Below are positions 7,777 through 21,009 of a DNA stretch of 64,000 nucleotides, in pieces; the first letter of the stretch is position 1, and every line of letters starts with the position of its first letter. The notes below the pieces were generated by a model. The model ran no database searches and was not told the origin of the DNA. It saw only the letters and a list, made by a program, of their open reading frames with translations. The DNA is from Flavobacteriales bacterium (lineage in GTDB: Bacteria > Bacteroidota > Bacteroidia > UBA10329), in NCBI GenBank assembly GCA_016124845.1, contig WGMW01000015.1, positions 1 through 64,000 on the forward strand, in the 5' to 3' direction. Position numbers and translations under genes: made by a program.

Positions 7777-9318
7777 ATGCTTGTCAAAACCTACGGAAGT
7801 GCTGTTTATGGGGTCGATGCTCACATCATCACCGTAGAGAGCAATGTGGCAGGTCAAGGCGTTAATTTTTACATGGTCGGCCTGCCAGATAATGCCGTAA
7901 AGGAAAGCCAATCGCGTATTCGCGCTGCGCTGAAGAATGTAGGTTATCATGTTCCTGGCAAGACCATCACCATCAACATGGCACCTGCCGATCTGCGGAA
8001 GGAAGGTTCCGCATACGACCTGACCATTGCCGCAGGAATTCTCGCTGCTTCGGGGCAGATAAAATCGAACGGCATGTCCGATTACATCATCATGGGAGAG
8101 CTGTCGCTCGATGGTGGGTTGCAACCCATCAAAGGCGCGTTGCCCATTGCCATCAAGGCTCGCGAAGAAGGCTTTAAAGGATTCATCCTGCCAAAGCAGA
8201 ATGCGCGCGAAGCTGCGATTGTAGATGATCTGGATGTGTATGGGATTGAGAACATTCAGGAACTGATCCACTTCTTCGATGGCAAGATGCCGTTGGATAA
8301 AACGGTTGTGAACACACGCGAGGAATTTTACAGGCAACTGAACGATTCCGACCTCGACTTTTCCGATGTAAAAGGGCAAGAGAACATCAAACGCGCCATG
8401 GAAATTGCGGCTGCGGGAGGCCACAATCTGCTGCTTATCGGTCCGCCAGGGGCGGGAAAGACCATGCTTGCCAAGCGACTGCCATCGATTCTTCCTCCGC
8501 TCTCGCTGAAAGAAGCCTTGGAAACAACCAAGATCCATTCTGTATCTGGCAATCTGGGTTCGAGCACATCTTTAATGACCACAAGGCCGTTCAGAAGTCC
8601 GCACCATACGATCTCCGATGCGGCTTTGGTCGGTGGCGGGCAGATTCCGCAACCTGGAGAAATATCTCTTGCACATAATGGTGTACTGTTCTTAGATGAG
8701 CTGCCAGAATTTCAGCGTTCTGTACTTGAAGTAATGCGCCAGCCTTTGGAGGATCGGATGGTGACCATTTCGCGTGCACGGCTTTCGGTAGAGTATCCGA
8801 GCAGTTTGATGCTGGTCGCTTCGATGAATCCGTGTCCGTGCGGGTATTACAACCATCCTGAGAAGGATTGTGTCTGCGCTCCAGGCGTGGTGCAGAAGTA
8901 CCTCAACAAGATCTCGGGGCCACTTCTGGACCGCATCGACATTCATGTGGAAGTGACGCCCGTGCCGATCAATGAGTTGGCAGATTTTCGCCCTGCGGAG
9001 AAAAGTGAGAAAGTACGAGCGCGCGTGATACAAGCACGCGAAAAGCAGATCGAACGGTTCAAGAACAACCCACAGGTGCACAGCAATGCCATGATGGGGA
9101 CGAAATTGTTGAAAGAGGTCTGCAAGATCGATGATTCGGGAAAAGAGATGCTGAAGAAGGCCACCGACAGATTGGGACTTTCTGCCCGCGCATTCGATCG
9201 GATTCTTAAGGTTTCAAGAACCATTGCAGACCTTGAAAATTCGGATGATATTCGACCTGAACATTTGGCCGAGGCCATACAATACCGAAGTTTGGACCGA
9301 CAGAACTGGGCAGGCTGA
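7777..9318 (+). CDS. YifB/ComM family AAA ATPase
   Basis: A 513-residue protein with an N-terminal Lon-protease-like (ChlI) domain (MLVKTYGSAVYGVDAHIITVE onward, to about 165), an AAA domain of Mg-chelatase type with Walker A GPPGAGKTMLAKRL (about 222), GVLFLDELPEF and a four-cysteine insert region (NPCPCGYYNHPEKDCVC), and a helical C-terminus. ComM, the characterised member, is a branch-migration helicase that promotes integration of transformed DNA. The cysteine-containing loop is typical of the family. It overlaps the following kinase gene by one base. Confidence 0.92.
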   Translation: MLVKTYGSAVYGVDAHIITVESNVAGQGVNFYMVGLPDNAVKESQSRIRAALKNVGYHVPGKTITINMAPADLRKEGSAYDLTIAAGILAASGQIKSNGMSDYIIMGELSLDGGLQPIKGALPIAIKAREEGFKGFILPKQNAREAAIVDDLDVYGIENIQELIHFFDGKMPLDKTVVNTREEFYRQLNDSDLDFSDVKGQENIKRAMEIAAAGGHNLLLIGPPGAGKTMLAKRLPSILPPLSLKEALETTKIHSVSGNLGSSTSLMTTRPFRSPHHTISDAALVGGGQIPQPGEISLAHNGVLFLDELPEFQRSVLEVMRQPLEDRMVTISRARLSVEYPSSLMLVASMNPCPCGYYNHPEKDCVCAPGVVQKYLNKISGPLLDRIDIHVEVTPVPINELADFRPAEKSEKVRARVIQAREKQIERFKNNPQVHSNAMMGTKLLKEVCKIDDSGKEMLKKATDRLGLSARAFDRILKVSRTIADLENSDDIRPEHLAEAIQYRSLDRQNWAG

Positions 9319-10868
9319 TGAAAAAAATTCACGAGAACGACCTATACAAACTGGTCTACGAGATCGTTACCGAAGCGATGATCGTGGCCAATAGACACGG
9401 GGTCATTGTGGAGGCAAATCCTTCTGCCGTCAAGCTCTTTAAATATCCCATGGAGCAATTGATAGGAATGAATGTGGATGAACTGCTTCCTTCCGCGCTT
9501 CGGAAAATCCATGCGAACCATCGGCAAAATTATGTGAAACACCCACAGAAACGGACAATGGGGAGTGGAATGGAGCTTAGCGCGCAAGACGCGGAAGGCA
9601 ATTTAATTCCTGTCGAAGTTTCATTGAATCATGCCCAGTTTGATGGCGAGCTGCGCGTGGTTGCGCTCATTTCTGACATCACCACCCGAAAAGAAGCCGA
9701 GGACAAGATCCTACAGATTAACAGAGAGCTGGAGGAAGGTGTGCGCCAACGCACGCAGGAGCTGAATGCGGCCGTAAGAGCATTGGAAGAAAGTCAGCAT
9801 CTCTACACGCTCATCGCACAGAATTTTCCAGATGGGACCATCAATGTGCTGAACAGAGAACTGAATTACATCTTCGCGGAGGGAAGAGAGTTTGTACGAA
9901 GTGGAATTGACCGAAAGAAGGTCATCGGTCTCAATTACATTTCGTTGCTGCCCAAAGAATTCCGCGAAAAGGTGCAGACCGAACTGAACCGCGTTTTTGA
10001 AGGACTGCCACGCAGTTTCGAGATCGTATCGCGAGGCCATACCTACATCATGTCGGCCGTTCCGCTGTACGATGAGGAAGAAGGCGTGAACCGCGTGCTG
10101 TTGGTTGAAAAGAACATCACCGAGCAGAAACAAGCCGAGCAGGATATGATCAACGCGTTGAAAAAAGAACGCGAACTGAACGAACTCAAATCAAGGTTTG
10201 TGTCGATGGCCTCACACGAGTTCCGTACACCGTTGGCCACGGTGCTCAGTTCGGTCAATCTGGTAAGCCGACATGCCGAGGCAGGCAATATGGAATCGGT
10301 GAGCAAGCACGTTGGCCGTATCAAGAATTCCATCCGAAACCTGACATCCATCCTCAACGATTTCCTTTCGTTGGAAAAACTCGAAGCAGGAAAGGTCCAA
10401 TATCGGCCCGAAGAATTTGAGATGTGTGACGTGGTGCGCTCAGTGGTAGAGGACATCGGGGCGATGACCAAATCTGGTCAGACCATTCAGCTCGACTGTG
10501 GTGAAGGGTCGGTGGTAGTGCTCGATCCGCAGCTGCTCCGCAACATCCTTTTCAATCTGCTGTCAAATGCGGTAAAATACAGCAAGGAAAATGCAGAGAT
10601 CGGCCTGACCGTGGAACTGGCGGATTCGCAGTTGACCATTCGGGTTTCCGATAAAGGGATCGGCATTCCAGAAGAGGAACAGAAACACTTGTTCGAGCGG
10701 TTCTTCCGCGCCAAAAACGCAACGAATATTCAAGGAACGGGTCTCGGATTGAACATCGTTTCTAAACACGTGGAATTGATGGGCGGGAGCATTGATTTTA
10801 CCAGTAAATTGAATGAAGGAACTACTTTTATGATCACCTTACCGAGGAATAATCCAGCAGCAGAATAA
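9318..10868 (+). CDS. PAS-domain sensor histidine kinase
   Basis: A 516-residue soluble kinase with no membrane helix: PAS domain 1 at about 10-125 with an associated C-terminal segment, a coiled-coil linker (EEGVRQRTQELNAAV), PAS domain 2 at about 160-275, a HisKA domain with phospho-acceptor H300 in SMASHEFRTPL, and a HATPase_c domain (NLLSNAVKYS, DKGIGIPEEE, GTGLGLNIV). It overlaps the next gene by one base, so the kinase and the receiver-Crp regulator are almost certainly partners. PAS domains can bind haem or flavin, but no ligand-binding residue can be assigned here. Position next to the cbb3 genes suggests redox or oxygen sensing, which is inference. Confidence 0.9.
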   Translation: MKKIHENDLYKLVYEIVTEAMIVANRHGVIVEANPSAVKLFKYPMEQLIGMNVDELLPSALRKIHANHRQNYVKHPQKRTMGSGMELSAQDAEGNLIPVEVSLNHAQFDGELRVVALISDITTRKEAEDKILQINRELEEGVRQRTQELNAAVRALEESQHLYTLIAQNFPDGTINVLNRELNYIFAEGREFVRSGIDRKKVIGLNYISLLPKEFREKVQTELNRVFEGLPRSFEIVSRGHTYIMSAVPLYDEEEGVNRVLLVEKNITEQKQAEQDMINALKKERELNELKSRFVSMASHEFRTPLATVLSSVNLVSRHAEAGNMESVSKHVGRIKNSIRNLTSILNDFLSLEKLEAGKVQYRPEEFEMCDVVRSVVEDIGAMTKSGQTIQLDCGEGSVVVLDPQLLRNILFNLLSNAVKYSKENAEIGLTVELADSQLTIRVSDKGIGIPEEEQKHLFERFFRAKNATNIQGTGLGLNIVSKHVELMGGSIDFTSKLNEGTTFMITLPRNNPAAE

Positions 10869-11926
10869 TGGGAAAGAAAATACTTGTGATCGATGACAAT
10901 TTAGAGATGCGCGAGAACATTGCGGAGATTCTTGAATTGGCCAATTACGATGTGGTAACTGCCGAAGATGGCAAGAAGGGCGTGGCGGCAGCGAAGAGCG
11001 AATCGCCCGACCTGATTATTTGCGATGTGATGATGCCCGAATTGGATGGCTACGGAGTGCTTCACATTCTGAGCAAAGACCCGAAGACGCTCGGAATTCC
11101 GTTCATTTTCCTAACGGCAAAGTCTGAAACCGTGGATATGCGCAAAGGCATGAGCTTGGGTGCTGACGACTACATTACCAAGCCTTTTGAGGAGACCGAC
11201 CTGTTGGATGCAGTGGAAATGCGACTGAAGAAGAGTGCGGCCATGAAAGCAGGTTCCGAACGAACCATCTTGGGCGTTCAAGGGTTCATGGCCACGGCCA
11301 CGGGCAAAGTGGTGGAGCAGATCACCAAGAACCATCGTGTAAAGCATTATGCACTCCGCGAGCATGTTTTCAGAGAAGGCGATGCCCCCATTTTTCTCTA
11401 TTTCCTCAACAAGGGAAAGGTGAAGACCTTTAAGATGAATGAGGACGGGAAGGAATACATCACTGGGCTTTACAACGCTGGCGATTTCTTTGGTTACACG
11501 GCCCTTTTAGAACACGACAATTACACCGATTCGGCCCAAGTGATCGATGATGCAGAAGTGCTGCTCATTCCGAAGGATGACTTTTACCATCTGATGGGTT
11601 CCAACCCAGAGGTCATCAGCAATTTCATCAAGTTGCTGGCAGACAATATTTTACAGAAAGAGGAACAACTCATCGAGCTGGCATACAGTTCGGTGCGCAA
11701 GCGCGTGGCCAATGCATTGGTTCAAGTGTATGAGAAGTACAATGCAGAGCATCGCGATGATTTCACCATCAGCCTCGGGCGCGAGGATATTGCAAGCATT
11801 GTTGGAACGGCCACCGAAACCGTTATCCGCGCCCTTTCAGAGTTCAAAGAAGACGGTTACATCAGTTCCAAAGGCCGCGACATTAAGGTCCTGAACATTC
11901 AGGCGCTGAAGAATTATCGGTTTTAG
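10868..11926 (+). CDS. Response regulator fused to Crp/Fnr-type transcription factor
   Basis: The 352-residue protein joins three domains: a receiver (1-125) with D9/D10, phospho-acceptor D53 in ICDVMMPELDG and KPF at its end; a cyclic-nucleotide-binding-like beta barrel (about 150-265; FREGDAPIFLYFLNKGKVK, FFGYTALL); and a Crp-type winged helix-turn-helix (about 275-350; LGREDIASIVGTATETVIRALSEFK). I see no cysteine cluster like that of E. coli FNR, so oxygen would be sensed by the kinase rather than by an iron-sulphur cluster here. The recognition helix TETVIRALSEF resembles Crp/Fnr, consistent with a TTGAT-N4-ATCAA target; exactly such a site lies 0.7 kb downstream. Confidence 0.9.
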   Translation: MGKKILVIDDNLEMRENIAEILELANYDVVTAEDGKKGVAAAKSESPDLIICDVMMPELDGYGVLHILSKDPKTLGIPFIFLTAKSETVDMRKGMSLGADDYITKPFEETDLLDAVEMRLKKSAAMKAGSERTILGVQGFMATATGKVVEQITKNHRVKHYALREHVFREGDAPIFLYFLNKGKVKTFKMNEDGKEYITGLYNAGDFFGYTALLEHDNYTDSAQVIDDAEVLLIPKDDFYHLMGSNPEVISNFIKLLADNILQKEEQLIELAYSSVRKRVANALVQVYEKYNAEHRDDFTISLGREDIASIVGTATETVIRALSEFKEDGYISSKGRDIKVLNIQALKNYRF

Positions 11927-11928
11927 GA

Positions 11929-12417
11929 ATGCCCAGAATCGAATTGACCACAATTATCGAAGCAGATATCAATGTGGTTTTCGATTTGTCTCGAAGCATA
12001 GACTTACACAAAATCTCAACGAAACACACAAACGAAGAAGCCATCGCTGGACGGACTTCTGGTTTGATTGAGCTGGGTGAAACAGTTACTTGGCGAGCCA
12101 AGCATTTTGGTATTTACCAAAAGTTGACATCGGTAATTACCGAGTTCAATCGACCAAATTCTTTTGTTGATGAGATGGTTCATGGAGCTTTTAAATGGTT
12201 CAGGCATGACCATCATTTTTCTTTCTCCCAAACTTCAGGAAAAACAATCATGAAAGATGTCTTTGAATATGAAAGTCCGTTGGGGTTTCTCGGCAGGATT
12301 GTGGATGATTTGTTCTTGGAAAACTATATGAGAAACCTACTGGAAATTCGGAATCAGACAATCAAGGAATTTTCGGAAAGTGGTAGATGGAAGAAGCTTC
12401 TGGAGATTGATTCTTAG
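11929..12417 (+). CDS. SRPBCC (START-like) family protein
   Basis: A 162-residue protein of the SRPBCC/polyketide-cyclase fold: it opens with a strand (RIELTTIIEADINVVFDLSRSIDLH), has ETVTWRAKHFG in the centre and ends with a long helix (LENYMRNLLEIRNQTIKEF). The fold makes a deep hydrophobic pocket; the ligand cannot be told from sequence. It starts two bases after the receiver-Crp gene stops and so belongs to the same operon. Similar proteins are often annotated as cell-division inhibitor-like, without good evidence. Confidence 0.8.
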   Translation: MPRIELTTIIEADINVVFDLSRSIDLHKISTKHTNEEAIAGRTSGLIELGETVTWRAKHFGIYQKLTSVITEFNRPNSFVDEMVHGAFKWFRHDHHFSFSQTSGKTIMKDVFEYESPLGFLGRIVDDLFLENYMRNLLEIRNQTIKEFSESGRWKKLLEIDS

Positions 12418-12465
12418 GAATCCGTCTCGTTCCTCCACTGTATAAAGCGTTTGTTCGGAGAGTCC

Positions 12466-12539
12466 ATTCTCCCCTTTGGGGAGATGCCGAAGGCAGAGGG
12501 GCTCGCTCCCCTCCTGGTAAGGAGGGGTTGGGGGAGGTC
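12466..12539. repeat. GC-rich intergenic repeat, copy 1
   Basis: Successive small palindromes (CCCCTTTGGGG, CTCCCCTCCTGGTAAGGAGGGG) fill the space upstream of ccoI. Its first 36 bases (12466-12501) occur again, exactly and in reverse orientation, at 31629-31664. Related variants lie at about 19496-19552 and 21061-21156. Confidence 0.8.
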
Positions 12540-12564
12540 ATCCTGACAAACCTCAGTTTTCCGT

Positions 12565-12578
12565 TTGATGGCCATCAA
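12565..12578. promoter_or_regulatory. Perfect FNR-type box upstream of ccoI
   Basis: TTGATGGCCATCAA is an exact match to TTGAT-N4-ATCAA, the FNR/FixK consensus. Its centre (12571.5) lies about 41 bases before the start point expected from the AACCTTTG -7-like box at 12600-12607, which is the classical position of a class II activator site. The receiver-Crp protein encoded just upstream is the obvious candidate to bind it. Confidence 0.75.
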
Positions 12579-12625
12579 GCGGATGCGGTAACTTAGCTTA
12601 ACCTTTGTTGCCGTAAAACCCATCC

Positions 12626-15061
12626 ATGTCAACAGTTACCCAAACTGCTACGTGCTACCATTGTAGCGAACCTTGCGTGGATGAGATCATCCATCACGAT
12701 GGTCACGAATTCTGCTGCAACGGTTGCAGTACGGTCTACCAGCTGCTACAAGATGTGGGGTTGGATGAGGCGTACGCCAACGGGCCGTTGGGCATTCGGC
12801 CTGATGTGGCAAAGGATCAAGAACTGGCCTATTTGGACAATGAGGAAGTGCAGGAAAGTCTGCTCGATTTCTCGGATGGCAACATGGCGCGCATCACGTT
12901 TGAGTTGCCCGCCATCCATTGCAGTGCCTGCGTGTATCTGCTGGAGCGGTTGGAAAAACTGAACGCTGGTGTAAAGAACTGTGAGGTCAACTTCCCAAAG
13001 AAGCGGGCGAACATACTTTTTAATAGGAGTGAGGTTTCGCTTCGTGAATTGGTGCAACTGCTGCATTCCATCGGCTATGCGCCCAATCTCAATCTTCAGA
13101 AGTCGACAGAGAAAGACGACAGGCCAACGACAGATAAGGCATTGCTTTATCGTTTGGGTGTGGCTGGTTTCTGCTTCGGAAATATCATGCTGCTCAGCTT
13201 TCCCGAATACCTTTTGGGCGGGAAGGAATTGGAAGAGAACTGGTCGCAGCTGTTCAATTACTTGAATCTGGTGCTGGCGTTGCCGCTGGTGCTTTTCGCG
13301 GGGCGCGATTATCTGGTTTCGGCCTACAAAGGTCTGAAGGCCGGTCATGTGAACATGGACGTGCCTGTTTCCATCGGCATCTTGGCCATTTTCTTCCGTA
13401 GTTCGTACGATATCGTAATGGGTCTCGGTCCTGGATTCTTTGATTCGCTGGCGGGATTCATCTTCTTTCTGTTGGTCGGAAAATGGTATCAGGCCAAAAC
13501 ATATTCGGGACTTTCGTTCGAGCGCGATTACCGTTCGTTCTTTCCAATTGCCGTAAATCGAATTGGCGAAGATGGAACCGTGGATGCCATCATGATCAAG
13601 CATCTGCTGAAAGGAGATGAGATCCAGATACACAATGATGAGCTGATCCCGTGCGATTGCGAGTTGCTTTCAGATAAGGCTTCCATCGATTACAGTTTTG
13701 TGACGGGCGAGGCTGCGCCAGCTTCGAAAGCGGAGGGAAATCGCATTTATGCGGGAGGTAAGAACCGTGGTTCGGTCATCCGCTTGCGTGTGCTCAAACC
13801 CGTTTCGTCCAGTTATCTCACTTCGCTTTGGAACAGTTCGGAGACGACCAAAAAGGAAGATCTTTCGCCATTGATCCGTTTCTCGGACAAGGTGGCCTCA
13901 TGGTTCAGCGCAGCGGTGCTTGCCATTGCAGCCATTACGGCCATTTATTGGTGGATTGTGGATCCGGTCAATTGGGTCAACACAACAACTGCGGTTTTAA
14001 TTGTGGCCTGCCCGTGTGCATTGGCGTTGAGTATTCCGTTCACCTACGGAAGTATGATGCGGCACTTCGGTAGAAATGGATTCTTTGTTCGTTCGGTAGA
14101 AGCTATCGCGAAGCTTGGAGAGATAACCCAGGTGGTTTTCGATAAGACAGGAACGATTACCATCCGCCAAAAAGGGAGCGTGAATTTCTCTGGACGGAAA
14201 TTGACCGAGGACCAGTTGGAGGCACTGGTGAATATCGCGCGGCAGTCGCTGCATCCGCTCAGCAAAACGTTTGCGGCTGCGTTTCCGAACGCACCACAGC
14301 AGCAGGTGGTCGGTTTTGCCGAAAATGCGGGTGTCGGCATCTACGGAATGGTGAACGGAACATTGGTGGAACTGAAGAACCCGAACCGTTTGGAGGAGAA
14401 ACAGCGGAAGAAGTTCAACTCATGGAAATCGGAACATCACGGAATGGGACAAACGGCCGTTCTGATAGATGGCGTGCTTTGGGCACGGGTTGATTTTACC
14501 ACCAGTTACCGACCTGGATTGAAGGAAACGGTGCATGCTATTGGAGCGGAGTACGGTATCTCGCTCTTATCAGGTGATAACGATTCGGAAGCGGCTGCTT
14601 TGAGTAATGAAGTTATCGCAGGTATTGATCCATCGCACATGCATTTTGAGATGGACCCGCACCAGAAGCGTGAATGGGTTGAGCATGAGCAGGAAGATGG
14701 TCACGAAAAAGTGCTGATGATCGGTGACGGACTGAACGATGCAGGTGCACTTCGCGAAGCGCATTTCGGTATTTCCATTGCTGAGGATAATAGTCAGTTT
14801 ACGCCCGCTTCGGATGGAATTCTGACCGCAGATTCGTTCCAAAAACTTCCGCAGTTGATCAAGCTGGCCAAACGATCGCGCAATGTGGTTCTTGGGGCTT
14901 TTGTACTGTCTCTTCTTTACAACTTGGTGGGACTTTCTTTTGCCGTACAAGGAATGCTTTCGCCCGTAATGGCTGCTATTCTCATGCCGTTGAGTTCCGT
15001 TTCGGTGGTGCTGTTTACAACGGTGACCACGGCTTTGATGGCGAAGCGGAAATTGGGGTGA
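12626..15061 (+). CDS. ccoI: Copper-translocating P1B ATPase, cbb3 oxidase assembly type (CcoI)
   Basis: The 811-residue protein starts with a cysteine-rich metal-binding domain of PF12156 type (C10, C13, C17, C30, C31, C34), then an HMA domain with CSAC at 99-102, followed by eight predicted helices. Catalytic marks are CPC at 462-464 in the membrane, DKTGT with phosphorylated D506, a TGE motif in VTGEAAP, and GDGLND with D701. This architecture is that of FixI/CcoI, which exports copper needed for the CuB centre of cbb3 oxidase. The gene precedes the ccoSNOQPGH cluster and has its own FNR-type promoter. Confidence 0.93.
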   Translation: MSTVTQTATCYHCSEPCVDEIIHHDGHEFCCNGCSTVYQLLQDVGLDEAYANGPLGIRPDVAKDQELAYLDNEEVQESLLDFSDGNMARITFELPAIHCSACVYLLERLEKLNAGVKNCEVNFPKKRANILFNRSEVSLRELVQLLHSIGYAPNLNLQKSTEKDDRPTTDKALLYRLGVAGFCFGNIMLLSFPEYLLGGKELEENWSQLFNYLNLVLALPLVLFAGRDYLVSAYKGLKAGHVNMDVPVSIGILAIFFRSSYDIVMGLGPGFFDSLAGFIFFLLVGKWYQAKTYSGLSFERDYRSFFPIAVNRIGEDGTVDAIMIKHLLKGDEIQIHNDELIPCDCELLSDKASIDYSFVTGEAAPASKAEGNRIYAGGKNRGSVIRLRVLKPVSSSYLTSLWNSSETTKKEDLSPLIRFSDKVASWFSAAVLAIAAITAIYWWIVDPVNWVNTTTAVLIVACPCALALSIPFTYGSMMRHFGRNGFFVRSVEAIAKLGEITQVVFDKTGTITIRQKGSVNFSGRKLTEDQLEALVNIARQSLHPLSKTFAAAFPNAPQQQVVGFAENAGVGIYGMVNGTLVELKNPNRLEEKQRKKFNSWKSEHHGMGQTAVLIDGVLWARVDFTTSYRPGLKETVHAIGAEYGISLLSGDNDSEAAALSNEVIAGIDPSHMHFEMDPHQKREWVEHEQEDGHEKVLMIGDGLNDAGALREAHFGISIAEDNSQFTPASDGILTADSFQKLPQLIKLAKRSRNVVLGAFVLSLLYNLVGLSFAVQGMLSPVMAAILMPLSSVSVVLFTTVTTALMAKRKLG

Positions 15062-15076
15062 GGAGAAGGTTCTATA

Positions 15077-15349
15077 GCCCATACTTTTCGGTTGGAGCTG
15101 TCATCAACGACAAAAGCAGCCTTTGTTTAGCGAAAAGATGACCTTGAGTAACGATGAGACGCCCTTGAAAAATGGTAATCCGCCTTTTTTTAACGAGTGT
15201 ATGCCATTGAAAAATTGTAATCTGCCCGTTAAAATGGAAAGTAAGCCTTAGAAAAAAGGAAAGCAGCCGAGGATAAACGGAAAGATGTCTTTGAAAAATG
15301 GTAGGCTGCCTTTTCGGATAGATAAAGGGAAGTTTAGAGCGGGTAATTC
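15077..15349. repeat. Degenerate 21-bp tandem repeat, 13 units
   Basis: Units begin at 15077, 15098, 15119, 15140, 15161, 15182, 15203, 15224, 15245, 15266, 15287, 15308 and 15329, with no insertions or deletions. The best units read like GCCTTTGAAAAATGGTAATCT; GCC at the unit start and an A-tract at positions 7-12 are the most conserved parts. Stop codons occur in the repeat frame, so it is not coding. It fills the space between ccoI and the convergent small gene that ends at 15350. Confidence 0.85.
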
Positions 15350-15661
15350 TTAGTTTCTTAGGTTCTTCTTCCTGTGCTTTTGAATTTTTTTGGAGGGTTT
15401 TTTCTTTAAGCCTTTGTTGACCCGAAAGGCCACATAGCCGAAAAAGACGATGCAGGCGATAAGAATCATCAGTCCAACACTTTCGGGCACTCCATTAGTA
15501 CTGTTGTAGGGGCGGCTAAACTCTCCCTTGCCATGCGCGTACGGAGGAATCTTGGCAAGCACAAAGAACAAGTGACCCCAACGGAAACATGAGGACTTGA
15601 AGTTAGCATCAAAATCGCTTTGATAAGACCTCGTTGGAAGGGACTTTTTGAAGATTCTCAT
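15350..15661 (-). CDS. Possible small membrane protein, opposite to the cco genes
   Basis: A 103-residue frame on the minus strand. It has one convincing membrane helix (SVGLMILIACIVFFGYVAF, about residues 62-80) followed by a strongly basic tail rich in lysine. The N-terminal half is polar with no recognisable motif. It lies between ccoI and ccoS, with no longer frame on the other strand. I do not recognise a family. The helix followed by positive charges supports a real inner-membrane protein, but the evidence is limited to this. Confidence 0.45.
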   Translation of the reverse strand: MRIFKKSLPTRSYQSDFDANFKSSCFRWGHLFFVLAKIPPYAHGKGEFSRPYNSTNGVPESVGLMILIACIVFFGYVAFRVNKGLKKKPSKKIQKHRKKNLRN

Positions 15662-15699
15662 TAATTGTGTTTGAATATTTCAACCTCATTTTCAGGTTT

Positions 15700-15713
15700 C
15701 TGACATCGATCAG
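15700..15713. promoter_or_regulatory. Weaker Crp/Fnr-like palindrome upstream of ccoS
   Basis: CTGACATCGATCAG contains TGA-N6-TCA, the common core of Crp/Fnr sites, with three deviations from the full FNR consensus. It lies about 60 bases before the ccoS start. A second palindrome, TTGAATATTTCAA, lies at about 15670-15682. Either could let the regulator also drive the oxidase operon. Confidence 0.4.
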
Positions 15714-15773
15714 TTTCATCTGTGACCGCACTCAGCAGGTGCCTAACGGACACTGGGCATTTTTGTGCCTGCA

Positions 15774-15935
15774 ATGAGTGTGATCTATCTACTAATAGCT
15801 GTAAGTATTGTGGCCGCAGCAGGCTTCTTGGGAGCATTTCTGTGGGCTGTGCGCAATGGGCAGTTCGATGATGATGAGACACCGGCCATGCGCATTCTAT
15901 TTGACGACAAAAAATCTTCAGAAACCAATAAATGA
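15774..15935 (+). CDS. ccoS: Cbb3 oxidase assembly protein CcoS
   Basis: A 53-residue protein (MSVIYLLIAVSIVAAAGFLG start) with a single helix, the segment FLWAVRNGQFDDDETPAMRI and a short acidic C-terminus. This is the CcoS/FixS pattern. CcoS is required to insert cofactors into subunit CcoN. Its stop overlaps the ccoN start (ATGA), so the two are translationally coupled. Confidence 0.92.
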   Translation: MSVIYLLIAVSIVAAAGFLGAFLWAVRNGQFDDDETPAMRILFDDKKSSETNK

Positions 15936-18079
15936 TCAAGATGGAAAAGGAAACCTTCCAGTATGACAATGGCATCGTCCGAAAGTTTGCCTTCGCTACT
16001 ATGGCGTTCGGCATCATCGGTATGCTGGTGGGTCTTACCGCTGCCTTGCAGATGGTGGATCCCATGTTCAATTTTTTGACACCGTTCCTCACTTTCGGTA
16101 GGATACGACCGTTGCACACCAACGCGGTGATCTTTGCCTTTGTAGGGAATGGCATCTTCATGGGCGTTTACTACTCATTGCAGCGACTGCTGAAAACGAG
16201 AATGTGGAGCGATGCGCTGAGCAACATCAACTTCTGGGGTTGGCAGCTGATCATTCTTTCGGCCGTGGCCACGCTTCCGTTCGGAATCACCACTGGTAAA
16301 GAATATGCGGAGTTGGAATGGTGGATCGATATCGCGATTGCGCTGGTTTGGGTGGTGTTCGGTCTGAACATGTTCATGACCATTCTCAAAAGAAGGGAAC
16401 GCCACTTGTATGTGGCCATCTGGTTCTACATCGCCACGTTTGTCACGGTGGCCATGCTGCACATCGTGAACAGCTTTGAGCTTCCTGTTTCTTTCTTGAA
16501 AAGCTACAGCTGGTACGCAGGTGTTCAGGATGCGCTGGTGCAGTGGTGGTATGGCCACAATGCGGTGGCATTCTTCCTGACCACGCCTTATCTGGGGTTG
16601 ATGTATTACTTCATTCCGAAGGCATCAGGTCGACCTGTGTATTCATATAGACTTTCCATTATTCACTTTTGGGCGCTGATCTTCATTTACATCTGGGCGG
16701 GCCCGCACCACCTGTTGTACAGTTCATTGCCAAATTGGGCACAGACCCTCGGAACGGTTTTCTCGCTGATGCTGATCGCTCCGAGCTGGGGCGGTATGCT
16801 CAACGGTCTGCTTACCCTGCGTGGTGCGTGGGACAGAGTCCGCGAAAGTGCCGTGCTGAAGTTCATGGTGGTGGCGGTGACCGCTTATGGTATGAGCACC
16901 TTTGAGGGTCCGATGCTTTCGCTGAAAAATGTGAACGCCATCAGTCACTTTACCGATTGGACCATCGCCCACGTGCACATTGGAGGTCTGGGATGGAACG
17001 GATTCCTCACGTTCGGCATCCTTTACTATCTCATCCCAAGACTTTGGAACACCAAGCTCTATTCTGACAAACTGGCCAATTTCCACTTCTGGATCGGTAC
17101 GCTTGGGATTCTGTTCTATGCGTTGCCAATGTATTGGGCAGGTTTTACCCAGAGTTTGATGTGGAAGCAGTTTACGGCCGAAGGGTTTCTTCAGTACCCT
17201 AACTTCTTGGAAACCGTTACGCAGATCAAACCGATGTATGCGGCAAGAGCATTCGGTGGTGGTATCTACATCATTGGGGTAATTACCATGCTCTACAACC
17301 TGGTCGCCACCATGCGCCAAGGTACTTTCCAGGCCGAGGAAGAGGCATCAGCAGTACCGTTGACCAAAGAATACACTTCTCATGGCAATGAGGGTTGGCA
17401 CCGCGTTATTGAGCGCAGACCCGTACAGATGTTAGTGTTCAGTTTGGTGGCCGTTGCCATCGGTGGAATTATTGAGATCATTCCCACCATGCTTGTGAAA
17501 AGCAACGTTCCAACCATTGCCAGCGTGAAACCTTACACACCGCTTGAGTTGGAAGGCCGTGACATCTACATCCGCGAAGGATGCTACAACTGTCATTCGC
17601 AGATGGTACGCCCTTTCCGCAGCGAGACCGAGCGCTACGGAGAATACTCCAAAGCAGGGGAATTCGTTTACGATCACCCGTTCCAGTGGGGTTCTAAACG
17701 AACAGGGCCTGACCTGCACCGTATTGGTGGTAAGTATGGCGACAGCTGGCATTACAACCACATGTGGGATCCATCCTCCATGTCGCCAGGAACCATTATG
17801 CCATCCTATCCTTGGTTGTTTGAGAATGAGTTGAGCACATCGCTAACTCCGAATAAGATCAGGGTCATGCAGACCTTGGGTGTACCCTACGATGAAGGCT
17901 ACGACCAAGTGGCGGTTGACGACCTGATGGCACAAGCACAAAAGATCTCTGACAACTTGAAGAAGGACAACATTGAGGTGCTTCCGCAGACCGAGATCGT
18001 GGCGTTGATCGCGTATCTCCAGCGCCTTGGAACAGACATTAAAGTGAAGGACGCACAAGCGGCCATGGTAACTCAATAA
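15932..18079 (+). CDS. ccoN: Fused cbb3 cytochrome c oxidase subunits I and II (CcoNO)
   Basis: The 715-residue protein is CcoN (about 1-480, with twelve helices and histidines in GRIRPLHTNAV, LVQWWYGHNAVAF and WTIAHVHIGGLGWN that bind haems and CuB) joined to CcoO (about 495-715). The CcoO part has one helix and a c-type haem site CYNCH with C551 and H555, followed by SQMVRPFRSETERYGEYSK and the methionine in SPGTIMPSYP. In most proteobacteria these are two genes; fusion is common in Bacteroidota. The complex reduces oxygen at low concentrations and pumps protons in the inner membrane. Confidence 0.95.
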   Translation: MIKMEKETFQYDNGIVRKFAFATMAFGIIGMLVGLTAALQMVDPMFNFLTPFLTFGRIRPLHTNAVIFAFVGNGIFMGVYYSLQRLLKTRMWSDALSNINFWGWQLIILSAVATLPFGITTGKEYAELEWWIDIAIALVWVVFGLNMFMTILKRRERHLYVAIWFYIATFVTVAMLHIVNSFELPVSFLKSYSWYAGVQDALVQWWYGHNAVAFFLTTPYLGLMYYFIPKASGRPVYSYRLSIIHFWALIFIYIWAGPHHLLYSSLPNWAQTLGTVFSLMLIAPSWGGMLNGLLTLRGAWDRVRESAVLKFMVVAVTAYGMSTFEGPMLSLKNVNAISHFTDWTIAHVHIGGLGWNGFLTFGILYYLIPRLWNTKLYSDKLANFHFWIGTLGILFYALPMYWAGFTQSLMWKQFTAEGFLQYPNFLETVTQIKPMYAARAFGGGIYIIGVITMLYNLVATMRQGTFQAEEEASAVPLTKEYTSHGNEGWHRVIERRPVQMLVFSLVAVAIGGIIEIIPTMLVKSNVPTIASVKPYTPLELEGRDIYIREGCYNCHSQMVRPFRSETERYGEYSKAGEFVYDHPFQWGSKRTGPDLHRIGGKYGDSWHYNHMWDPSSMSPGTIMPSYPWLFENELSTSLTPNKIRVMQTLGVPYDEGYDQVAVDDLMAQAQKISDNLKKDNIEVLPQTEIVALIAYLQRLGTDIKVKDAQAAMVTQ

Positions 18080-18091
18080 AGAATAAAGGTC

Positions 18092-18283
18092 ATGTTAAAG
18101 TTCATCAAACATCATATGGAGACGATCGCTGGGATCGACATCTATCCTGTTCTCTCCTTCATCATCTTCTTCACCTTCTTTTTGGTGGTTGCCGCTTATG
18201 TGTTCAAGCAAAGCAAGTCCTACTTCGATGAGGTAAGCATGCTGCCATTGGAAGACAGTCAGGATTCAACCAATAAAAACTGA
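18092..18283 (+). CDS. ccoQ: Cbb3 oxidase subunit CcoQ
   Basis: A 63-residue single-helix protein (YPVLSFIIFFTFFLVVAAYVF) with a C-terminal acidic tail. Size, position between ccoNO and ccoP and the helix pattern identify it as CcoQ/FixQ, which stabilises the binding of CcoP to the core. It starts 12 bases after ccoNO and ends three bases before ccoP. Confidence 0.9.
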   Translation: MLKFIKHHMETIAGIDIYPVLSFIIFFTFFLVVAAYVFKQSKSYFDEVSMLPLEDSQDSTNKN

Positions 18284-18286
18284 GAT

Positions 18287-19486
18287 ATGAAAACACGTTG
18301 GTTCACAAACAAATACAAGTTGCCTGTAGCGGCTCTTTTAACGCTGTTGGCAACCAGCGCAAACGCGCAGGAATCGAAAGTGCCTGTTCCATGGGAGAAC
18401 ATCGTCTCGGCCAATGATACGGCCGTATTCTGGGTGCTTGCGTCATTCGCAATACTCATGCTCATCCTCATTTGGGTGGTGGCAGGCGTTACCAAAGGAT
18501 TGCTTTCTGATAAAGAACTGTGGAAAGGAAAGTGGGAAGGAGCAGCCAAAAACGTGGCGGCAGTTGTTGGAACAGGTCTGTTGTTCACTTCTGCATCGGC
18601 ATTTGCCCAAGGCGATGCCAGCGCTGCGAAACCCATGTTCGAAATGTCGGACGGCCTTTTCTGGATCATGGTCATCGTTGACCTCTTCCTACTGGTCGTG
18701 CTGTTGGGAATGCTGTTCAACCTGAACAGTCTCATCAGATCTTTGCGAACATCAAAACAAGAAGAGGCGGTGGAAGAGTCCGTTGCCGAAAGCATCTGGA
18801 CGGGCAGTCTTTCGGGTGCCGTTCCTGTTGAGCAGGAAGGCGACATCATGCTCGATCACGAATATGATGGCATCCGCGAGTTGGACAACAAGCTTCCGCC
18901 TTGGTGGTTGTACATGTTCTACTTCACCATTGTGTTCGGTGTGGTTTACATTGCGTATTACCACTTTGGAGGAGGTCTTTCGCAAGAGGAAGAGTACTTG
19001 GCAGAAATGGCCGTGGCCGAAGAACAGAAGGCAGCCTTCTTGGCAAGTTCGGCCAATAATGTGGATGAAAGCAGCGTAGAGTTGCTCACCGATGCCACCT
19101 CTATCGCCAATGGCAAAGAGAAATTCCAAACGCTTTGTATTGCCTGCCACGGTGCCACGGGCGGAAGTATGCCAGGCGGTGTGGGACCAAACCTCACAGA
19201 TCAATACTGGTTGCATGGCGGTGGTATCAAAAACGTGTTCAAGACCATCAAATATGGTGTTCCTGCAAAGGGTATGATCTCGTGGGAATCGCAACTTACG
19301 CCACGGCAGATCCAAGAGGTGGCATCTTATGTTCTTTCATTGCAAGGCTCTAATCCGCCAAATGCGAAAGAACCGCAAGGTGATCTGTGGTCGGGCGAAG
19401 TTGTTGAACCAGCTGCTGCTCCAGCAGATTCTACAGATGTACAGGAAGCTCCCGATGCAGCGGCCACGGCCAATGCTGGGGAGTGA
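18287..19486 (+). CDS. ccoP: Cbb3 oxidase subunit CcoP with a single c-type haem
   Basis: The 399-residue protein begins with a signal-like helix (residues 10-28), has two further helices (about 43-65 and 120-145), then the CcoP N-terminal signature DGIRELDNKLPPWW and its helix, and one cytochrome c domain with CIACH (C284, H288). The distal ligand is probably the methionine in AKGMISWE. Proteobacterial CcoP carries two haem c sites; this one has only one, plus an N-terminal extension with extra helices. A proline/alanine-rich acidic tail ends the protein. Confidence 0.92.
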   Translation: MKTRWFTNKYKLPVAALLTLLATSANAQESKVPVPWENIVSANDTAVFWVLASFAILMLILIWVVAGVTKGLLSDKELWKGKWEGAAKNVAAVVGTGLLFTSASAFAQGDASAAKPMFEMSDGLFWIMVIVDLFLLVVLLGMLFNLNSLIRSLRTSKQEEAVEESVAESIWTGSLSGAVPVEQEGDIMLDHEYDGIRELDNKLPPWWLYMFYFTIVFGVVYIAYYHFGGGLSQEEEYLAEMAVAEEQKAAFLASSANNVDESSVELLTDATSIANGKEKFQTLCIACHGATGGSMPGGVGPNLTDQYWLHGGGIKNVFKTIKYGVPAKGMISWESQLTPRQIQEVASYVLSLQGSNPPNAKEPQGDLWSGEVVEPAAAPADSTDVQEAPDAAATANAGE

Positions 19487-19495
19487 AATGGACCT

Positions 19496-19552
19496 CTCCC
19501 AACGTCTCCCTTGCAAGAGGGAACCGCGAAGCGGAAAGGAGGTCAAAAAAGA
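19496..19552. repeat. GC-rich intergenic repeat inside the cco operon
   Basis: A run of short inverted repeats (CTCCCTTGCAAGAGGGA, CCGCGAAGCGG) between ccoP and ccoG that is related in style to the repeats at 12466 and 21061. It could form a hairpin in the operon mRNA. Confidence 0.6.
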
Positions 19553-19593
19553 TTGAAAAAACCATCGGCATGTCCGACCCAATTGACTGAGAA

Positions 19594-21009
19594 ATGGAGA
19601 CGAAAGACGAAGAAGGGTCATTTAGAGATCACCTGTCAACGCTTGATGAGACAGGTAACAGAAAATGGATCTATCCCAAGAAACCAGCTGGCAGGTATTA
19701 CAACTACCGCAAATGGCTGAGCTACTTTCTGCTTGCGGTGCTCTTCGGGGCACCGTTCATCAAGATCGGTGGTGAGCCGCTTTTGATGGTGAACATCCTG
19801 CAAAGGAAGTTCGTCATCTTCGGACAGGTCTTCTGGCCGCAGGATTTCTACATCTTCGGTCTTGCCATGATCGTTGCGGTACTTTTCATTGTACTGTTCA
19901 CGGTGGCCTTCGGTCGTATTTTCTGTGGTTGGTTCTGTCCGCAGACCATCTTCATGGAAATGCTTTTCCGCAGAATTGAGTATTGGATAGAAGGGGATTG
20001 GAAGCACCAACAGCGGTTGGATGCCATGCCATGGAATGCAGAGAAGATCCGCAAGAAAGGCTTGAAGCACTTCTTGTTTTTGGCGGTTTCGTTTCTCATT
20101 TCCAACACGTTTTTGGCATACATCATCGGCTCAGATGAGTTGATAAGCATCATCACCGATCCGCCTGCGGAGCACATCGTTGGTCTGGTGCTGATCATTG
20201 TTTTCACCTTGGTCTTCTACGGAGTGTTTGCCAGAATGCGCGAACAGGTCTGCACCAACATCTGTCCGTACGGACGATTGCAGGGCGTGATGCTTGACCG
20301 TAACTCCATGATCGTGGCCTACGACCACAAACGGGGCGAAGGCCGCAGCAAGTGGCGCAAAGGCGAAGACCGCGCAGCCGAAGGGAAAGGCGATTGCATC
20401 GATTGTCATCAATGTGTGGATGTGTGTCCAACGGGCATCGACATCCGAAACGGTACGCAGCTGGAATGCATCAATTGCACGGCCTGTATGGATGCGTGCG
20501 ATACGGTGATGGAAAAGGTCGGATTTGAAAAAGCTTTGATCGGTTACAAGAGCGAAGAGACCATTTCTACTGGAAAGCCGTTTCAGTTCACACTTCGGCT
20601 GAAAGCATACACGGCCGTGTTGAGCATTCTGATGATTGTGATGGTGGGATTGATCGTTACGCGTTCTGACATTGGTGCCACCGTTCTCCGCACACCTGGC
20701 ATGCTTTATCAGGAAGGTGAGAACAACACAATAACGAATTTGTACAACTTCAAAGTGATCAACAAAACGGCTGAAGACATGCCGCTCGATCTACGTGTGA
20801 TCAACGGATTCGGAACCATTAAAATGGTAGGCGATTCAGTAACGCTCAAAGCACAGGGAACCACCGAAGGCGTTATGTTTGTGGAGGTTCCACGCGATCA
20901 GGTCAAAGACCGCAAGACAAAAGTTGTGGTAGGAATTTATAGTGGTGACAAGCTGCTGAAGAAAGTGAAGACCAACTTCATCGGCCCTGCACCTGGGTTA
21001 AGTAGATAG
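19594..21009 (+). CDS. ccoG: Cytochrome c oxidase accessory protein CcoG
   Basis: A 471-residue membrane protein with five or so helices and a ferredoxin-like domain. The motifs FCGWFCPQTIFMEML (about 110), CTNICPYGRLQG, and the cluster sites CIDCHQCVDVCP and CINCTACMDACD are those of CcoG/FixG (RdxA). The C-terminal 110 residues form the Ig-like FixG domain. CcoG reduces copper(II) for delivery to CuB. It follows ccoP after a repeat-filled gap. Confidence 0.94.
   Translation: METKDEEGSFRDHLSTLDETGNRKWIYPKKPAGRYYNYRKWLSYFLLAVLFGAPFIKIGGEPLLMVNILQRKFVIFGQVFWPQDFYIFGLAMIVAVLFIVLFTVAFGRIFCGWFCPQTIFMEMLFRRIEYWIEGDWKHQQRLDAMPWNAEKIRKKGLKHFLFLAVSFLISNTFLAYIIGSDELISIITDPPAEHIVGLVLIIVFTLVFYGVFARMREQVCTNICPYGRLQGVMLDRNSMIVAYDHKRGEGRSKWRKGEDRAAEGKGDCIDCHQCVDVCPTGIDIRNGTQLECINCTACMDACDTVMEKVGFEKALIGYKSEETISTGKPFQFTLRLKAYTAVLSILMIVMVGLIVTRSDIGATVLRTPGMLYQEGENNTITNLYNFKVINKTAEDMPLDLRVINGFGTIKMVGDSVTLKAQGTTEGVMFVEVPRDQVKDRKTKVVVGIYSGDKLLKKVKTNFIGPAPGLSR

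Follow-up and report, generated by a model that had tools for sequence, protein, structure and literature searches.

The palindrome TTGATGGCCATCAA upstream of ccoI, in the 64-kb window analyzed here (the whole stretch of 64,000 nucleotides, from a Flavobacteriales bacterium), would be one of two sites in a paired operator, the one nearer the promoter, at which an activator of the Crp/Fnr family would bind. The two TGAY-N4-RTCA palindromes, centered near -63.5 and -41.5, would lie on one face of the double helix; each would be occupied by an activator dimer, and the two dimers would recruit RNA polymerase by class II activation to a Bacteroidota -7 promoter (TAnnTTTG) without a conserved -33 element. 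Of the candidate activators in this genome, the receiver-Crp fusion encoded upstream is the most likely. The neighboring kinase would phosphorylate it; the N-terminal PAS domain of this kinase is probably a FixL-like heme oxygen sensor, such that low oxygen would lead to transcription of ccoI and ccoS-ccoNO. The system would be equivalent to the FixL-FixJ-FixK cascade, except that a single protein would combine the receiver of FixJ with a FixK-like DNA-binding part. We consider it likely that a paired operator, a receiver-Crp activator and a FixL-like kinase act here as such a cascade, reduced to two proteins. The paired arrangement is common to much of the Bacteroidota, where it probably switches on the high-affinity respiratory oxidase at low oxygen. 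The features of the region are collected in Table 1.

Table 1. Genes and promoter elements of the cco region (positions in the window)
Feature	Position	Strand	Basis
Histidine kinase, N-terminal FixL/DosP-like PAS domain with proximal heme-ligand histidine	9318..10868	+	
Receiver-Crp fusion, putative activator at the paired operators	10868..11926	+	
Upstream operator box CTGACAAACCTCAG, center exactly 22 bp 5' of the downstream-box center	12543..12556	+	
Downstream (promoter-proximal) operator box TTGATGGCCATCAA, 14-base palindrome 5' of ccoI	12565..12578	+	sequence, orthologue conservation
-7-like element AACCTTTG, 5 of 6 fixed bases of TAnnTTTG, offset 28 from the downstream-box center	12600..12607	+	
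ccoI, copper P-type ATPase for cbb3 oxidase assembly	12626..15061	+	
Upstream operator box CTGACATCGATCAG, ccoS-ccoNO promoter	15700..15713	+	
Downstream operator box GTGACCGCACTCAG, ccoS-ccoNO promoter	15722..15735	+	
-7-like element CATTTTTG, offset 29 from the box center	15758..15765	+	
ccoS, cbb3 oxidase assembly protein, first gene 3' of the second paired operator	15774..15935	+	
ccoNO, fused catalytic and mono-heme cbb3 oxidase subunits	15932..18079	+	

The box TTGATGGCCATCAA, which is separated by 47 bp from the ccoI ATG, is the sole perfect match to TTGATNNNNATCAA in the window, with about 0.22 expected from a Markov model. On the scale of the genome, the perfect FNR string is by itself not enriched: TTGAT-N4-ATCAA occurs 15 times in the 4.36 Mb, as compared with 13.5-14.9 expected from a Markov model. 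It is because of conservation and architecture that TTGATGGCCATCAA amounts to more than chance. The sequence-only reading of this DNA had suggested looking for the same box upstream of orthologous ccoI genes; it is present in all five same-genus genomes with a ccoI orthologue (72-80% identity), with its center 54-57 bp before the ATG. A second palindrome, with the consensus CTGAC-N4-GTCAG, lies exactly 22 bp further 5' in each of the five. When these promoters and that of the window are aligned without gaps, anchored on the downstream box, 17 of the 28 box positions are invariant, whereas none is among the 22 positions between the downstream box and the -7 region or the 12 of the upstream flank. 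The single box singled out in that reading is real, but it is half of a pair, the partner of which had been overlooked.

In the same-genus relatives, only a few bases separate the receiver-Crp stop codon from the operator. In the window, an ORF and a repeat element intervene, yet both boxes are intact. The ORF (162 residues, 11929-12417) is missing from this position in the five same-genus loci, and Pfam and NCBIfam searches with it gave no match. The repeat element begins with CTCCCCTTTGGGGAGATGCCGAAGGCAGAGGGG, spans 12469-12539 and ends a few bases 5' of the upstream operator box; the genome holds 18 copies of this type at up to three mismatches, nine of them perfect, and none of a control pattern. 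Irregular A-rich repeats of the type TTGAAAAATGGTAATCCGCC occupy 15100-15340, between ccoI and the ccoS promoter.

Paired boxes recur well outside the genus. An exact TGAY-N4-RTCA core is found within 250 bp upstream in 41 of 105 non-redundant ccoI regions from Bacteroidota and Ignavibacteria, as against 1.7 expected from a first-order model. When exact cores were tabulated with cores of at most one mismatch over 99 ccoI loci (960 kb), 63 pairs were spaced by 22 bp and at most 8 by any other distance from 12 to 60 bp, a contrast unaffected by the few near-duplicates among the loci. In a profile of 63 promoters, the TGA and TCA are at or near 100% in both boxes, and the outer base of the upstream box (-70) is C in 49%, A in 38% and T in 11%. 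With 15 genomic occurrences for about 14 expected and an unconserved outer base, TTGAT-N4-ATCAA was rejected as the family motif; the E. coli FNR consensus is a special case of the family's box. The earlier description of TTGATGGCCATCAA as the full consensus thus fits E. coli FNR/FixK but not the Bacteroidota family, in which the outer base is relaxed. The genes 3' of the pairs in other loci are mainly ccoI, ccoS and those for universal stress proteins; in L025 and L079, where the kinase gene is divergent from ccoI, it too follows a pair. Two loci (L100 around 1294 and L117 around 1293) have what appear to be triple boxes at 22 bp steps, flanked by an ArsR-like gene (identified in L117) and a gene for a universal stress protein in divergent orientation; the central box would be common to both promoters.

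The pair also stands at a fixed distance from a promoter element. For 73 pairs chosen without use of the -7 element, counted in both orientations and at every downstream offset, a TAnnTTTG-like sequence (at most one mismatch) occurs 69 times at offset 29 from the downstream center and 0-7 times at any other offset. An exact TAnnTTTG stands at offset 29 in 22 cases, and at any other offset in no more than two. With near-duplicates removed, offset 29 is found in 68 of 79 oriented cases, a figure that is descriptive only, as that list was preselected for a -7 element at 28-30. In the 63-promoter profile, A-11, T-8, T-7, T-6 and G-5 each reach at least 90%, and there is no conserved -33 element. 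The box centers are assigned to -63.5 and -41.5 because the first base of TAnnTTTG is taken as -12, like the first base of TATAAT. The class II placement first proposed for the ccoI box thus finds support outside the window, in nearly all pairs of the 99 loci: with the fixed 29 bp offset and the lack of a -33 element across loci, the downstream site would be centered about 41.5 bp 5' of the predicted start and replace the upstream promoter element, the offset at the window's ccoI being 28.

That promoter departs slightly from the pattern. Its AACCTTTG lacks the first T and is 1 bp short, which counts against the best explanation, as do the weaker -7 elements of two same-genus promoters (L019 and L020); the offset is 29 in the other three (L017, L018 and L021). 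The original estimate of a box centered about 41 bases upstream of the start agrees well with these coordinates, which give -40.5 and a predicted start at 12612 if the first base of AACCTTTG is -12. A sigma-70 scan of 9000-20000 returned nothing above shuffled sequences and nothing near 12600, a scan that is uninformative for promoters of the -7 TAnnTTTG type.

The window contains a second pair, at the ccoS-ccoNO promoter, which had also been overlooked. Its -7-like element lies at offset 29, so this promoter may be stronger than that of ccoI, with its offset of 28 and absent first T. Genome-wide promoter statistics were based on pattern searches. A scan of the 4.36 Mb genome gave only four pairs with at most one mismatch, and none with the reversed control: those of ccoI, ccoS and two universal stress protein genes. 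A search for a single box plus the -7 element with two mismatches gave 111 matches against 71 in the control, and was dropped as a stand-alone regulon search because it is near background. The weaker one-box candidates, which include thioredoxin, a TauE/SafE-type exporter, a YgaP-like membrane protein and OsmC, are leads only. Elsewhere in the genome, a single TGACTGAGGTCA box (L148/L149, G000 C12:44526-44599) lies between divergent genes that resemble those for tryptophan 2,3-dioxygenase and kynurenine 3-monooxygenase, both of which would use oxygen; a -7-like element is found at offset 29 on both sides, which could be chance. A partly matching pair with an CACATTTG element at offset 29 (L132, G000 C7:48583) precedes a small protein with a CNGKCHLKKQ motif.

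What protein would bind these boxes? The product of the gene upstream consists of a receiver, a cyclic-nucleotide-type domain and a Crp-type HTH (HTH_Crp_2), according to Pfam. The receiver matches Response_reg with an E value of 8e-29 and conserves the acidic pocket, the acceptor Asp and the Lys; with its phospho-acceptor Asp and the adjoining HisKA/HATPase kinase gene, the protein qualifies as a response regulator. The recognition-helix residues of FNR are Glu209, Ser212 and Arg213, and the helix of the window protein (TETVIR) has the Glu and Arg, with Ile at the Ser212 position. Three familiar identities do not fit. FNR is rejected, as the N-terminal cysteine cluster for an oxygen-labile Fe-S center is absent and the only cysteine among its 352 residues lies within the receiver domain. 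A FixK has neither a cysteine cluster nor a receiver, and here a full receiver is fused at the N-terminus; a FixJ joins its receiver to a LuxR-type HTH, and here the output is HTH_Crp_2. The protein is thus not filed as FNR, FixK or FixJ, and is predicted from its domains to act like FixJ and FixK combined.

The sequence-only reading had connected the two-component genes with the copper ATPase and the cbb3 oxidase, and comparison of genomes strengthens that connection. In the same genus, the receiver-Crp gene stands directly beside the ccoI operator, and in 11 further loci no more than 5 kb separates ccoI from the kinase/receiver-Crp gene pair. Full-length relatives of the receiver-Crp protein are encoded in 33 of the 59 genomes compared, and these have more paired sites, with a mean of 7.4 per genome versus 1.8 in genomes without it (p 8e-7, which is optimistic as related genomes are non-independent). 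Genomes that have a receiver-Crp protein but no FNR-like relative still average 5.2 pairs, versus 1.2 in those with neither (p 2e-5, likewise optimistic because kinship is ignored). In its own genome, the window protein is the best Crp match, and a separate FNR-like relative was not found at an E value of 1e-25.

The best solved relatives of the kinase PAS domain are FixL (phmmer E 4e-12), an unnamed multi-sensor kinase and DosP. The proximal histidine of FixL aligns with His65, which is invariant in all 12 kinases (that of the window and the 11 linked ones), so that by alignment this would be a PAS domain of the heme-type, with predicted heme binding. The distal arginine of FixL and DosP is replaced by Met in the window kinase and is variable in its relatives. 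Since this residue is not conserved, oxygen is a likely rather than a settled ligand of the PAS domain, and the kinase could respond to NO or another signal.

At other loci, the neighbor of ccoI is a Crp protein that has an N-terminal cysteine cluster and no receiver (L062, L068, L091, L098 and L122). The recognition helix of these FNR-like proteins is nearly identical to that of the receiver-Crp protein (VGTATETVIRxLSEFK type), and the 22/29 bp geometry is also present at L062, L068 and L098. A strict regular expression, which gives a partial count, detects the cysteine pattern in 6 of 15 FNR-like relatives. These likenesses suggest that one operator may be served by two kinds of sensor.

How else might the box be explained? 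A chance palindrome, produced by searching 64 kb with a degenerate motif, would agree with the 15 perfect matches in the genome where about 14 are expected. It is contradicted by the conservation among orthologues and, across 99 loci, by the pairing at 22 bp and the constant distance to the -7 element, and we regard it as most improbable. A different argument accepts the pair as real and assigns the main activation in this genome to another Crp/Fnr paralogue. The genome does encode further Crp proteins, one of which (C7:43635) carries the related helix TTYESVIRSLAEL (YESVIR), and in other genomes the FNR-like cysteine-cluster proteins with the same helix adjoin ccoI. However, it is the receiver-Crp gene that abuts the operator in five same-genus loci, its product has the same VGTATETVIR helix as the FNR-like proteins, and paired operators persist in genomes where only the receiver-Crp protein is found; a paralogue as the main activator is accordingly unlikely.

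The nature of the signal leaves somewhat more room for doubt. The boxes might be bound as predicted while the signal is NO, redox state, another PAS ligand or an input through the central region of the kinase, and both the Met in place of the oxygen-stabilizing distal arginine and the stress or redox character of other predicted targets (universal stress proteins, thioredoxin, OsmC, TauE) would agree with this. The main conserved targets, however, are classic low-oxygen genes that encode assembly factors and structural subunits of the high-affinity oxidase, and the closest solved PAS domains are those of the oxygen sensors FixL and DosP, so that we give a signal other than oxygen only a modest chance. 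We still favor the view that a FixL-like kinase and the receiver-Crp activator would turn on the paired promoters at low oxygen.

Low-oxygen control in the Bacteroidota is poorly described. The promoter grammar read here from sequence, two TGAY-N4-RTCA boxes 22 bp apart and then TAnnTTTG 29 bp past the second center, predicts a regulator, a sensor and a first list of targets in testable form. It would let regulons be read from the genomes and metagenomes of a large phylum, and it suggests that phosphorelay and cysteine-cluster inputs have been swapped over one conserved operator.

Class II Crp/Fnr-type sites at cbb3 genes are well established in Proteobacteria (FNR, FixK, ANR). We found neither a receiver-Crp protein nor paired Crp/Fnr operators at Bacteroidota cbb3 promoters in the open-access literature; as far as that search shows, the strict Bacteroidota pair, the constant spacing between it and the -7 element, and a likely route from FixL to receiver-Crp are new. 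The passages of a meta-regulon study that concern the Crp/Fnr homologues of Flavobacteriales and Saprospiraceae leave these provisionally as MalR-like, with carbon sensing, a MalR motif and an indeterminate signal; they deal with Crp/Fnr members of related bacteria and, within those passages, describe neither a receiver-Crp protein nor paired operators (PMC8510549).

With E. coli FNR at class II sites (center near -41.5), the window system shares the TGA/TCA palindrome, the promoter distance and the Glu and Arg of the recognition helix in its Crp-type HTH. It differs in that the protein has no N-terminal cysteine cluster, has Ile in place of Ser212 and begins with a receiver, and in that the promoters add a regular second box 22 bp upstream. 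Another parallel is the alphaproteobacterial FixL-FixJ-FixK system, which also combines a heme-PAS-like kinase, a receiver, a Crp/Fnr output, cbb3 targets and a similar box, the FixK/FnrN motif being TTGANCNNGATCAANG (PMC4999443). Unlike that system, the one in the window fuses the receiver to the Crp output and dispenses with the LuxR-type output of FixJ, and its operators are paired at 22 bp, with relaxed outer bases and a Bacteroidota -7 element. Within the Bacteroidota, the FNR-like proteins have nearly the same helix as the window regulator and, in several loci, the same pair spacing, but they carry a cysteine cluster where the window regulator has a receiver and a partner kinase instead. 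We lean, by a narrow measure, toward a picture in which a FixL-like kinase signals to a one-protein FixJ-FixK at a rigid -63.5/-41.5 pair, FNR-like cysteine-cluster proteins take that place elsewhere, and the DNA has been conserved while the sensor was exchanged.
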